Source: Pseudanabaena sp. lw0831 (GTDB lineage Bacteria > Cyanobacteriota > Cyanobacteriia > Pseudanabaenales > Pseudanabaenaceae). Taken from it: a stretch of 47,416 nt of DNA. The DNA lies in assembly GCF_016584665.1 (NCBI RefSeq), contig NZ_BBJB01000113.1, positions 1 to 47,416 on the forward strand. The letters run 5' to 3'. A program made the position numbers and the translations under genes. Each line of letters begins with the position of its first letter. Positions within the stretch are counted from its first letter, which is position 1. Positions 40,610-43,697 of the stretch are shown here, piece by piece. The notes below the pieces were generated by a model. That model saw only the letters and a program-made list of their open reading frames with translations, was not told where the DNA came from and ran no database searches.

Positions 40610-40666
40610 AAAAATCAGTTTTGATGCAAGTCCGCCGCCGACGGACTTACATCAAAACTGATTTTT
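40610..40666. repeat. 25-bp palindrome downstream of the acidic-protein gene
   Basis: Arms start AAAAATCAGTTTTGATG (40610-40634 and 40642-40666), with a 7-base loop and one mismatch. It lies between petM and the gene ending at 40699. Confidence 0.78.
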
Positions 40667-40698: not shown

Positions 40699-41388
40699 TC
40701 ACAAGATTTCTACATCGATCGCATCGGCATAATCTTCTTGCTCACGCTTAGCTTGACTATCCTTAGATTTATGAGAATCTTGCTCATTTTGATAAGATTC
40801 CATAACTTCAGCCTCGTCTAACCAAACTGGGCGAATCTCGTAATGAACTCGCAGATTTGCAGGAGCACTGCGTTCAGCTTCTCGCACAAATCGATTAGCT
40901 TCCCATTCTGCTTGAAATGTGTTGATCAATTTGAGCGTTTTTAGACGTTGTCGCTCTAGATATGTCCATACTTCCCAAGCATTGTATTCAGGCTCTTTGG
41001 GCGTTTCAATGATTTCTTCAGGCTCAGAAAATATTTCAGCATGATCGTCATGATCTGTAGACTTTTGGCTATCACGAATAGGATCATTACTCTGATCCTC
41101 AAATTTAGATGGTGATGGCTTTGGTCTATCTTCATCATCGCGAGATTTGCTAGCAACATCCTTCGATGTTGCCGAATCTGCGAAGGCATCCTGCGATCGC
41201 GATAGACTTTTAATCGCCCTTGCCCGAATTTGTCTAACTGATGACTGATCGCCTGCGATCGCCTTCACCTCGATCGCCGTCTGAGACTGATCAACCCATC
41301 CTTTAAAAATGACTTCCTCGTCATTAATTATTAAGCGATCGCCAACTTCTAACGCAAATCCTGCTAACGAATTAAACAATGGCTTCAA
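40699..41388 (-). CDS. Acidic, partly disordered protein of unknown function
   Basis: The annotated part is 229 residues from a TTG at 41388. An N-terminal beta-like domain (GDRLIINDEEVIFKGWVDQS) is followed by a long charged, low-complexity linker (KDVASKSRDDEDRPKPSPSK). A helical region (AWEVWTYLERQRLKTLKLIN) and a disordered acidic tail complete it. I do not recognise it. The frame stays open upstream to 41530 but has no ATG or GTG there, and no Shine-Dalgarno precedes the TTG. It may therefore be read as an extension of the preceding gene by a frameshift in a five-base G run. Confidence 0.55.
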   Translation of the reverse strand: MKPLFNSLAGFALEVGDRLIINDEEVIFKGWVDQSQTAIEVKAIAGDQSSVRQIRARAIKSLSRSQDAFADSATSKDVASKSRDDEDRPKPSPSKFEDQSNDPIRDSQKSTDHDDHAEIFSEPEEIIETPKEPEYNAWEVWTYLERQRLKTLKLINTFQAEWEANRFVREAERSAPANLRVHYEIRPVWLDEAEVMESYQNEQDSHKSKDSQAKREQEDYADAIDVEIL

Positions 41389-41492
41389 GTTTGGTGTTGA
41401 ACTAAAGCCACTAGCACTATTAGCGTCTTGACTATGGTCATTAGCGACCTTGGGGATAGAGACATTTGCCTGACTAGATTTCCCATTGTCAA

Positions 41493-41774
41493 TCAGGCTT
41501 TGGACTCCCCCAGTTGCATTCTCATCTCGCTAATTTGAGCATGTAACGGAGCTAGACATTTCTCGACATATGTCAAAAGCTCAGGATGTAAAATGAACGG
41601 AGATGGCTCTGGTAGCTTTTCTGGTATTGTCTCAGGCTCAAACTCGCGGCTGACCACTGTTAAAATCCAATCAGCGATCGCCTGTTGTTTGGCATCAGCT
41701 TTTGTTTTGATTTGGCTCAATAAAGGCAGAGGAAAACGAAGATTTACCTGTTTTGTCCTATGAGGAGTCGCCAT
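41493..41774 (-). CDS. Ribbon-helix-helix-like DNA-binding protein
   Basis: This 93-residue protein begins HRTKQVNLRFPLPLLSQIKT, followed by ADAKQQAIADWILTVVSREF, which fits a ribbon-helix-helix fold of the Arc/CopG type: one strand then two helices. A proline-rich linker and a C-terminal helix follow. It is probably a small transcription or partition regulator; the target is unknown. It precedes the acidic-protein gene, whose frame overlaps its end. Confidence 0.65.
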   Translation of the reverse strand: MATPHRTKQVNLRFPLPLLSQIKTKADAKQQAIADWILTVVSREFEPETIPEKLPEPSPFILHPELLTYVEKCLAPLHAQISEMRMQLGESKA

Positions 41775-41863
41775 TATTTGCCCTTACTTAAAATTTTTGA
41801 AAATGTTTGCGAACTTAATTATAGCAATCGGCATCACTAATACCAATTCTCGAAAATGTAGTC

Positions 41864-41994
41864 CAGCAATTCTCGTTATCAAAATCGGTTTTTTGAAAGC
41901 CCACCTATGGCGGGCTTTCAAAAAACCGATTTTGGAGTTTCCAGCGCAAAAGGCGCTGGAAACTCCAAAATCGGTTTCATAATGAGAATTGCTG
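41864..41994. repeat. Composite nested palindrome (three-way-junction-like)
   Basis: An outer 16-bp stem (41864-41879 and 41979-41994) encloses two inner hairpins: 41881-41902 with 41912-41933, and 41926-41947 with 41953-41974. The inner hairpins share CCGATTTT (41926-41933), so they cannot both form fully. It fills much of the 328-base gap between two minus-strand genes. Confidence 0.82.
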
Positions 41995-42034
41995 AATGTA
42001 GTCGCACTTTCGATAATATAAAAATCAAACCTAA

Positions 42035-42073
42035 AAAGAAGAAGCATCGCAATTATTGCGATGCTTCTTCTTT
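42035..42073. terminator. Terminator of the 39-residue membrane protein gene
   Basis: A perfect 19-bp stem, AAAGAAGAAGCATCGCAAT, with a one-base loop ends in TTT, 29 bases past the stop at 42103. Confidence 0.75.
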
Positions 42074-42102
42074 AGCTTTATAGACATTTCGATAGCCAAT
42101 AA

Positions 42103-42222
42103 TTATTTAAACTGCAAAGGGGATTTCCCCAATGAAAGCGTAACCATTACCCACAACGCTAAGCTAGAGCAGGCAAAAGCGGAAATAACTCCTAAGAAAA
42201 AGCTATTCCAAACAATAATCAT
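42103..42222 (-). CDS. Small single-helix membrane protein (39 aa)
   Basis: The frame runs from the ATG at 42222: MIIVWNSFFLGVISAF, then a hydrophobic helix, ending SLGKSPLQFK. AGGAG lies nine bases upstream and a terminator lies downstream, so it looks like a real gene. Its size and topology are like the small subunits of photosynthetic or NDH-1 complexes, but I cannot match it to a named one. Confidence 0.6.
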   Translation of the reverse strand: MIIVWNSFFLGVISAFACSSLALWVMVTLSLGKSPLQFK

Positions 42223-42464
42223 TTTGCTTTTCTCCTGAATACAGAATTCTAGCTGTACTGTACATAATATTTATAGCTTATTACTTTATAAAGTAACTGT
42301 GCGATTGCTGACAAAAATTAACAATCGATCATAGACGATGAAACAAATTAATTTGTTCCCTAAAACTCATGTTTAAGAACGCGCTTTCCATTATCTAGCT
42401 GTTTTAAAACACGGGTTTGGAGAAGTTCAAAAACAGCAAGCCCAGAACCAGTAATTCACTTGTG

Positions 42465-42519
42465 AAACCAATTTTGGGGTTTTCAGCGTCGCAGGCACTG
42501 AAAACCCCAAAATTGGTTT
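42465..42519. repeat. 22-bp perfect palindrome upstream of menB
   Basis: Arms AAACCAATTTTGGGGTTTTC+AG (42465-42486 and 42498-42519) enclose an 11-base loop. It is homologous to 41923-41977, with paired changes in both arms. The remainder of the 377-base spacer (42223-42599) is AT-rich and shows nothing recognised. Confidence 0.82.
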
Positions 42520-42599
42520 TGATGGCATTTGGAATAAAAAAGATGAGGCAGCTTTAGCCGATGATAAAATGAGTATCTGTACTTTTTGATCCCAAAACC

Positions 42600-43430
42600 A
42601 TGACCGATTGGCAAATCGCCGCCGAATTTGAAGACATTCTCTATCACAAAGCCGATGGAATGGCAAAAATTACAATTAATCGTCCCCAAGTTCGTAATGC
42701 TTTTCGTCCTAAAACGATTACAGAAATGATCGCTGCCTTTGCTGACGCGCGAGAAGATGTAGAGATAGGTGTAGTTTTGCTAACTGGTGCAGGACCTACA
42801 ACCGATGGTAAATACGCTTTTTGTTCAGGGGGCGATCAGAAAGTGCGTGGAGATGGTGGTTACATCTCTGAGTCTGGCGTACCGCGCTTAAATGTACTCG
42901 ATTTGCAGCGTTTAATTCGGACAATGCCTCAACCTGTAATTGCATTAGTTGCTGGTTATGCGATCGGTGGTGGTCATGTGTTGCACGTTGTCTGCGACCT
43001 AACTATTGCTGCCGATAATGCTGTTTTTGGGCAGACTGGCCCAATGGTTGGTAGCTTTGATGGTGGTTTTGGGGCTTCCTATTTGGCGAGATTAGTTGGA
43101 CAGAAAAAAGCAAGGGAAATTTGGTATCTATGTCGTCAATATGATGCTCAAGAAGCTCTTGATATGGGCTTAGTGAATAAGGTTGTACCAGTGGGGCAGT
43201 TGGAAGCTGAAGGCATCCAATGGGCGCAGGAAATTTTAGATAAAAGTCCCTTGGCAATTCGTTGTCTCAAGTCTGCCTTTAATGCTGATTGTGATGGACA
43301 AGCGGGTATTCAAGAGTTGGCGGGTAATGCAACAATGTTGTTCTACATGACTCAGGAAGCACAAGAGGGTAAGCAAGCATTTCTCGAAAAACGCAAACCC
43401 AATTTTCGCCAATATCCCAAATTGCCATAA
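42600..43430 (+). CDS. menB: 1,4-dihydroxy-2-naphthoyl-CoA synthase
   Basis: This 276-residue crotonase-fold enzyme closes the second ring in phylloquinone synthesis; phylloquinone is the A1 cofactor of photosystem I. Diagnostic parts are [34 protein letters not shown], the oxyanion region [20 protein letters not shown] and [20 protein letters not shown]. The start at 42600 ([13 protein letters not shown]) matches relatives. It is followed by a strong hairpin, so it is probably monocistronic. Confidence 0.96.
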
Positions 43431-43440
43431 ATGATATTCC

Positions 43441-43495
43441 GCAAATGCAAAAACGAGAGGTAGCGCAAAGCGCTACCTCTCGTTTTTGCATTTGC
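43441..43495. terminator. 26-bp perfect palindrome after menB
   Basis: The stem runs 43441-43466 and 43470-43495 with an AAA loop and apex GCGC-AAA-GCGC, starting 11 bases past the menB stop. Confidence 0.85.
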
Positions 43496-43565
43496 AGTCA
43501 ACAGATAAGACGATCACGATACACTTGATAAATTATGATCAATTAGCAAAAATCAATCAAGTTTT

Positions 43566-43697
43566 ATGTCAGAAACCGTTCTTCTCAATACCTTCTTCTG
43601 GTCTGCCATTGTACTAATGGCGATCGCCACTAGTGGCGTTGGCTATCTCACTTATCTAGAATGGCAAGATCGTCGCCGTCGCGGAGGAAAAAGTTAA
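43566..43697 (+). CDS. Small single-helix membrane protein (43 aa)
   Basis: The frame reads [20 protein letters not shown] and ends [14 protein letters not shown]: one membrane helix and a strongly basic cytoplasmic or stromal-side tail. Its 3' 50 bases overlap the end of ribBA on the opposite strand. The helix-then-RRRR layout and the clean frame favour a real gene of the small thylakoid-protein type. No named family is recognised and no strong Shine-Dalgarno is seen. Confidence 0.55.

Follow-up and report, generated by a model that had tools for sequence, protein, structure and literature searches.

Paired arm changes and turned loops in a family of palindromic miniature elements of Pseudanabaena

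Two palindromes and the element around the first

The window considered here, that is, the whole 47-kb stretch of DNA analysed (47,416 nucleotides), belongs to a Pseudanabaena genome of 5.26 Mb in 118 contigs (G000). It carries two palindromes a few hundred base pairs apart, and Table 1 gives their positions together with those of the surrounding features. The arms of the first palindrome (41923-41947 and 41953-41977) are 25 nt long, those of the second (42465-42486 and 42498-42519) 22 nt, and in both cases they are 100% complementary. When the two are aligned base by base, their outer 22 pairs differ at three stem pairs, with pairing intact: G-C in the 41923 copy is A-T in the 42465 copy at pair 6:50, A-T is G-C at pair 14:42, and C-G is T-A at pair 19:37. 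This agrees with the initial annotation, which had described two neighbouring homologous palindromes with complementary arms and paired differences. Its further statement that every site keeps its pairing is true of the outer 22 pairs but not of those near the loop, where C.A at 23:33 and T.G at 25:31 interrupt the 42465 copy and where pair 26:30 is paired in the 42465 copy and unpaired in the 41923 copy.

The window contains 25 palindromes with an arm score of at least 13, against none in any of five order-2 Markov sequences, and the two described here belong to one repeat family; a chance origin is therefore excluded. The stretch gives 87 BLAST matches in its own genome, many of which are the two strands of a single place. 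More generally, near-perfect palindromes of several families, about 30 to 67 bp long, are densely spread through the genome (25 places in the window). As judged by eye, many of those in the window immediately follow a gene end or separate convergent genes.

The first palindrome is one of two overlapping hairpins within an element that the initial annotation did not recognise. This element is a MITE: it has terminal inverted repeats, a target-site duplication with a corresponding empty site, and ends in common with an autonomous element. At the orthologous site of two other genomes (G017 and G019) the element is absent and one copy of the target is found, and in a third (G008) a different palindrome is present. 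The second palindrome is hairpin A of an old copy that lacks hairpin B. Its orthologues in G017 and G008 are hairpins with other arm sequences, standing before the same gene.

Table 1. Position of the MITE, its parts and related hairpins in the window
Feature	Position	Strand	Remarks
Target-site duplication AATGTAGTC, left copy	41855..41863		9/9 match with the right copy; single AATGTAGTC in G017, single AGTGTAGTC in G019
131-bp MITE with two overlapping hairpins	41864..41994		Empty orthologous site in G017 and G019
Terminal inverted repeat, left, 16 bp	41864..41879	+	One mismatch to CAGCAATTCTCATTAT
Hairpin B	41880..41934		26-nt arms, 96% complementary, 3 nt between; 12-mer overlap with hairpin A
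Hairpin A (first palindrome)	41923..41977		25-nt arms, 5 nt between
Terminal inverted repeat, right	41979..41994	-	Exact CAGCAATTCTCATTAT
Target-site duplication AATGTAGTC, right copy	41995..42003		9/9 match with the left copy
Eroded terminal repeat CAGTAATTCACTTGTG adjoining the second palindrome	42449..42464	+	First 11 bases match the MITE end with at most 2 mismatches
Hairpin A (second palindrome) of an old copy lacking hairpin B	42465..42519		22-nt paired arms; inner part of 11 nt containing two mismatched pairs
Solitary type-B hairpin, same family	40610..40666		Likeness to B hairpins, judged by eye

At the gathering score, Rfam models gave 0 matches in 41000-43600, and a BLAST search of plasmids with the MITE gave no match. 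In the literature, the first 14 bases of the MITE end occurred in no open-licence paper, and no description of the element in Pseudanabaena was found by title or abstract opening.

The MITE family and its candidate helper

The 16-mer end is found 144 times in the genome with at most 2 mismatches, versus 2 hits for the reversed pattern. Among 49 end pairings in the family stretches of this genome, the flanking 9-mers agree at 8 or 9 of 9 positions in 27, with 15 exact; several of the remaining pairings, which have poor ends, are probably due to chance. The elements form clusters at lengths of 131 and 133 bp and an additional group at 45 bp. A full copy reads, in order, an end, a 12-mer (R1), the arm and loop of hairpin A, the reverse complement of the 12-mer (R2), the arm and loop of hairpin B, a third 12-mer (R3), and the other end, R2 being common to the two hairpins. 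The 45-bp form, with one such repeat between its ends, fits a deletion between R1 and R3, which lie 86 bp apart. When the cores of the three repeats are read at fixed offsets, they are identical in 14 of the 23 full-length copies; R3 alone differs in six others, R1 alone in one, and all three differ in two. At one locus (L010, 1399-1582), a 131-bp copy sits precisely where a 53-bp copy ends, and its target duplication GAATTACTG is the older element's end. Elements of 122 bp (L056, 1243-1364) and 141 bp (L060, 1266-1406) have the same ends and exact 9-bp duplications around different interiors, and may represent additional MITE families served by the same helper.

A search of Pseudanabaena genomes with a transposase of Gloeothece verrucosa PCC 7822 returned 30 loci, and in 13 of them (from G020, G024, and G004) exact CAGCAATTCTCATTAT ends stand 1,417-1,428 bp apart, with an exact 9-bp duplication in 10 of the 13. 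The reference copy measures 1,418 bp and contains a 440-aa frame. This insertion sequence of other Pseudanabaena, with ends identical to those of the MITE, is the likely helper and source of transposase. A near-full-length transposase gene of another genome (G016, locus L424) has no such ends. The gene of the Gloeothece transposase, annotated as ISNCY family, is bounded by ends CAGCAATTCTCATTTT at a distance of 1,766 bp, and these have no matching duplication. Its protein matches 9 of the 26 Pseudanabaena genomes searched and has no match in the genome of the window. Among short elements with the MITE ends in bins labelled as other bacteria, the right ends of some (L241 and L248) encode a tail weakly similar to that ISNCY transposase (for L241, E 8e-3, 44% over 39 residues). 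Family models match these proteins only weakly.

Other transposases were also considered. None of the six PF01609 transposase loci of the window's own genome and none of 15 PF03400 (IS1) loci from five genomes had both ends within 4 mismatches. A derivation from the IS1 family was likewise rejected: a single, partial locus (L233) joins an end to an IS1-type gene. Since its first ~105 bp match another locus (L298) before the two diverge, it is likely a nested IS1. In this locus, which comes from a proteobacterial metagenome bin, the IS1-type transposase gene (111-786) is seemingly inserted in an element of the MITE family. Thirty loci returned with its IS1 protein gave, as end pairs, only ones with 5 mismatches and without duplication; one of that search's loci (L371) has one lone end with 2 mismatches. 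By eye, no transposase was recognised among the listed frames of three candidates for a long element (L303, L262, and L300).

Finally, bins labelled as other bacteria contain, among the matches listed (80 loci examined), short elements with the same ends and other interiors. At L303, L257, L285, and L271, from bins carrying the labels Marinifilum, Nitrosomonas, Desulfobacula, and Methylovulum, end pairs stand about 135-251 bp apart, and exact 9-bp duplications flank those of L257 and L285. Either the ends cross phyla or these four bins are contaminated.

Paired changes in the arms and turned loops

Covariation is widely taken as proof of selection on an RNA fold. The initial annotation had proposed a covariation test on further copies of the palindromes. 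By their likeness to the consensus, 50 A hairpins were gathered from stretches of the genome, and merging two duplicates left 48 copies (47 distinct rows). Of the 1,248 cells obtained (48 copies by 26 pairs), 1,152 are Watson-Crick, a number that after column shuffling has a mean of 964 and a maximum of 991; 130 cells are paired variants and 96 are unpaired. Changes on both sides occur at 22 of the 26 stem pairs, with a covariation score of 0.346 against 0.107 after shuffling and at most 0.069 in the slid control. Both-side changed cells number 134 against 28.4 in the shuffles, and on any of five measures 0 of 500 shuffles reach the observed value. The copies were chosen for likeness and their relatedness inflates the shuffle test, so that the slid control and the orthologous comparisons below weigh more.

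Copies within one genome may come to agree in their arms by exchange, either through gene conversion among dispersed hairpins or through new insertions of variants, and there are indeed many close copies, with several variants recurring. Comparisons at orthologous sites, where the flanks align, bear on this directly (Table 2). Set 1 is rich in MITEs and comprises 72 locus pairs of at least 86% mean identity; its 114 palindrome comparisons became 85 after removal of sequence repeats, and as this set is non-redundant by sequence only, a few sites appear with two partners. Its background divergence is 11,636 of 147,466 positions (0.079). Set 4 consists of 65 kb of aligned blocks at 97.5% identity or more, where 253 of 63,971 positions outside the palindromes differ (0.4%). 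Set 1 shares a few sites near menB with set 2 or set 4, and the counts are therefore not additive. Sites were chosen for being palindromic in at least one species, a selection that lowers the unpaired count.

Table 2. Arm changes at orthologous palindromes (expected numbers, in brackets, under independence)
Set	Genomes	Palindromes	Dropped for gaps	Ungapped	Pairs	Paired changes	Unpaired changes
1	MITE-rich locus pairs	85	39	46	1,037	38 (2.2)	76 (151)
2	G021/G002	35	17	18	377	13 (0.44)	18 (44.7)
3	G023/G020	9	5	4	77	6 (0.26)	4
4	G023/G025	22			489	1	0

In set 1, a further five pairs are unpaired in both orthologues, and 918 are unchanged. Whether unpaired substitutions are as frequent as paired ones, a question raised by the initial annotation, thus receives a divided answer. 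They are not among the copies of one genome (96 against 130). By plain count at orthologous sites, they outnumber the paired ones in the two larger sets, 76:38 and 18:13. Measured against independence, the paired changes of these same sets are ~17 and ~30 times the expectation, and the unpaired changes amount to about half of it or less. Several of the gapped sites also show, by eye and uncounted, matching insertions or deletions in both arms. Moreover, palindromes unlike the MITE family carry paired changes in all three genome pairs of sets 2 to 4. Neither re-insertion nor the MITE family is therefore needed for such changes, and exchange between copies is very unlikely to be their source.

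A second alternative is that the hairpins are selected as RNA, for example as terminators or stability elements, with single changes arising mostly via G-U intermediates and then being followed by a selected change of the partner. The strong covariation among copies is as this alternative would have it, and so is the number of unpaired changes at orthologous sites, about half of the expectation or less. In addition, a comparison by eye places many other palindromes of the window at gene ends, and 41500-43600 contains six terminator-like hits, five of them on three hairpins, versus 1.7 in shuffles. The spectrum of changes speaks otherwise. Transversions account for 17 of the 38 paired changes, 28 of 78 single ones, and 4,658 of all 12,393 aligned differences; the paired changes thus lack the bias to transitions that a G-U intermediate needs. 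G.T and A.C mismatches are about equal, at 25 and 29 among the copies of the genome and 26 and 24 at the sites of set 1, which is a weak test because it depends on the strand that is transcribed. The overlap of hairpins A and B in a 12-mer also means that both cannot form fully in one RNA.

The loops provide a further mark. Among the 46 ungapped sites of set 1, 14 loops are turned, that is, reverse-complemented, 19 are the same, and 13 are other. Twelve of the 14 would need 3 or 4 base changes; the other two are one-base loops, for which a single substitution explains as much. With one-base loops left out, 12 of the 31 same-or-turned loops are turned at ~8% divergence. Two turned loops of this set are accompanied by a paired arm change at a flank identity of at least 97%. 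In set 2, compared by 13-base cores, the turned form is the closer match for eight of 35 (by at least 3 bases for five clear ones and by one base for the other three), 12 are the same, and 15 are self-complementary, tied, unclear or without a core. The two turned loops of set 3 each rest on one base. Set 4 has five turned loops among its 22 palindromes, four being exact turns of 3 to 5 bases and the fifth a turn plus one base; one further single-base loop change, equally explained by substitution, is outside this count. Loop triplets among the copies of the window's genome also come in complementary couples: TGC 7 and GCA 4, AAA 6 and TTT 5, GTA 6 and TAC 3, TTC 4 and GAA 3. A strand switch would be expected to turn the loop as a whole in this way; selection on an RNA stem would not.

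Both kinds of event are recent, as a paired change and turned loops separate the genomes of set 4, which are about 99.5-99.6% alike; this, like the turning of the loops, speaks against slow selection on RNA pairing, which is on balance an unlikely explanation. At this depth, one-step arm changes rest on one paired event, the other events of the set being loops.

The main caveat concerns the assembly of loops in draft genomes, as several of the genomes are metagenome bins or drafts. Short words cannot tell a perfect palindrome from its turned form, so that an assembler working from short reads may pick either; G025 is in about 160 contigs, and turned loops are not clearly more frequent at higher divergence (5/22 at 0.4%, 12/31 at about 8%). 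A fast real process would likewise predict a plateau below one half, and G021 and G002, with contigs of 4.80 and 4.73 Mb, differ by five clear loop turns. Paired arm changes cannot arise in this way. It is thus quite unlikely that the turned loops are artefacts.

Arm copying and related systems

The initial annotation had left two readings side by side, maintained pairing or a process that copies arms. This disjunction is supported, and its second half better than its first, because the loops are reverse-complemented as blocks and because the events are present between near-identical genomes. We consider it probable that the hairpin modules of the MITEs are moved by a transposase recognising the same ends, and that each hairpin then becomes a hot spot of replication template switching. 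A transposase of this kind would move the Pseudanabaena MITE family with the modules it carries, and an inserted hairpin would be prone to template switching during replication. The growing strand may fold back and copy the other arm, by which a change in one arm would be written into both, or it may switch to the opposite strand and copy through the loop, which would turn the loop over. Paired changes would then largely be single DNA events, and selection on the RNA fold would not be needed. As the enzymatic path, we infer replication template switching rather than a different way of copying arms, for example through cruciform processing. Selection on pairing may contribute too, because unpaired changes are about half of the expectation or less.

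A bolder proposal, which we hold as possible and somewhat doubtful, is that Pseudanabaena palindromes turn their loops by interstrand template switching ~75 times faster than single sites are substituted (a hand estimate from a two-state model and the 5 turned loops of 22 at 0.4% divergence). Loop orientation would then be a fast random switch and stems would be kept perfect by mutation alone, as a trait of the whole genus that is perhaps tied to replication or nuclease genes.

The mechanism itself is already known, and the interest lies in the clear natural record. In yeast inverted repeats, template-switch mutation leaves arm homogenisation and loop inversion as its marks (PMC8604942). In RNA genes, compensatory change accompanied by loop inversion has been called the strongest possible support and extremely rare (PMC8794818). 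Template-switch mutation at inverted repeats, as described in these papers (PMC8604942, PMC8794818), resembles the present case in arm homogenisation, inversion of the spacer or loop, and compensatory changes in one event. Two of these marks are found here, namely paired arm changes above independence and, with the caveat of assembly, loop inversion. In contrast to what is reported for RNA genes (PMC8794818), paired changes and turned loops are frequent here, in long near-perfect cyanobacterial palindromes.

These palindromes constitute a bacterial case, with about 150 orthologous comparisons (85, 35, 9, and 22, a few of them shared), in which mutation at the DNA level is the better explanation of covariation. 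Covariation alone is here no proof of selection on the RNA fold, and covariation in near-perfect hairpins need not mean function. The system would also allow the shares of one-step and two-step compensatory change to be measured.

Very small mobile repeats of cyanobacteria were, by the title, reportedly the subject of work by Elhai et al. in 2008, and the likeness to the present family is that of small dispersed elements. With IS-derived MITEs (PMC10969869), the family shares its length of 131 to 133 bp, terminal inverted repeats, 9-bp duplications, shorter derivatives, and a same-ended insertion sequence. It differs from those described there (PMC10969869) in having two overlapping hairpins that share a 12-mer in three alternating copies, plus the 45-bp form. 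REPINs are also short mobile hairpins, and compensatory changes are reported as common in them (PMC3116915). Unlike the REPINs described there (PMC3116915), the ends and the 9-bp duplication found here go with an insertion sequence annotated as ISNCY. Finally, paired changes and turned loops are not confined to this family: in related genomes, palindromes from other families have them as well.
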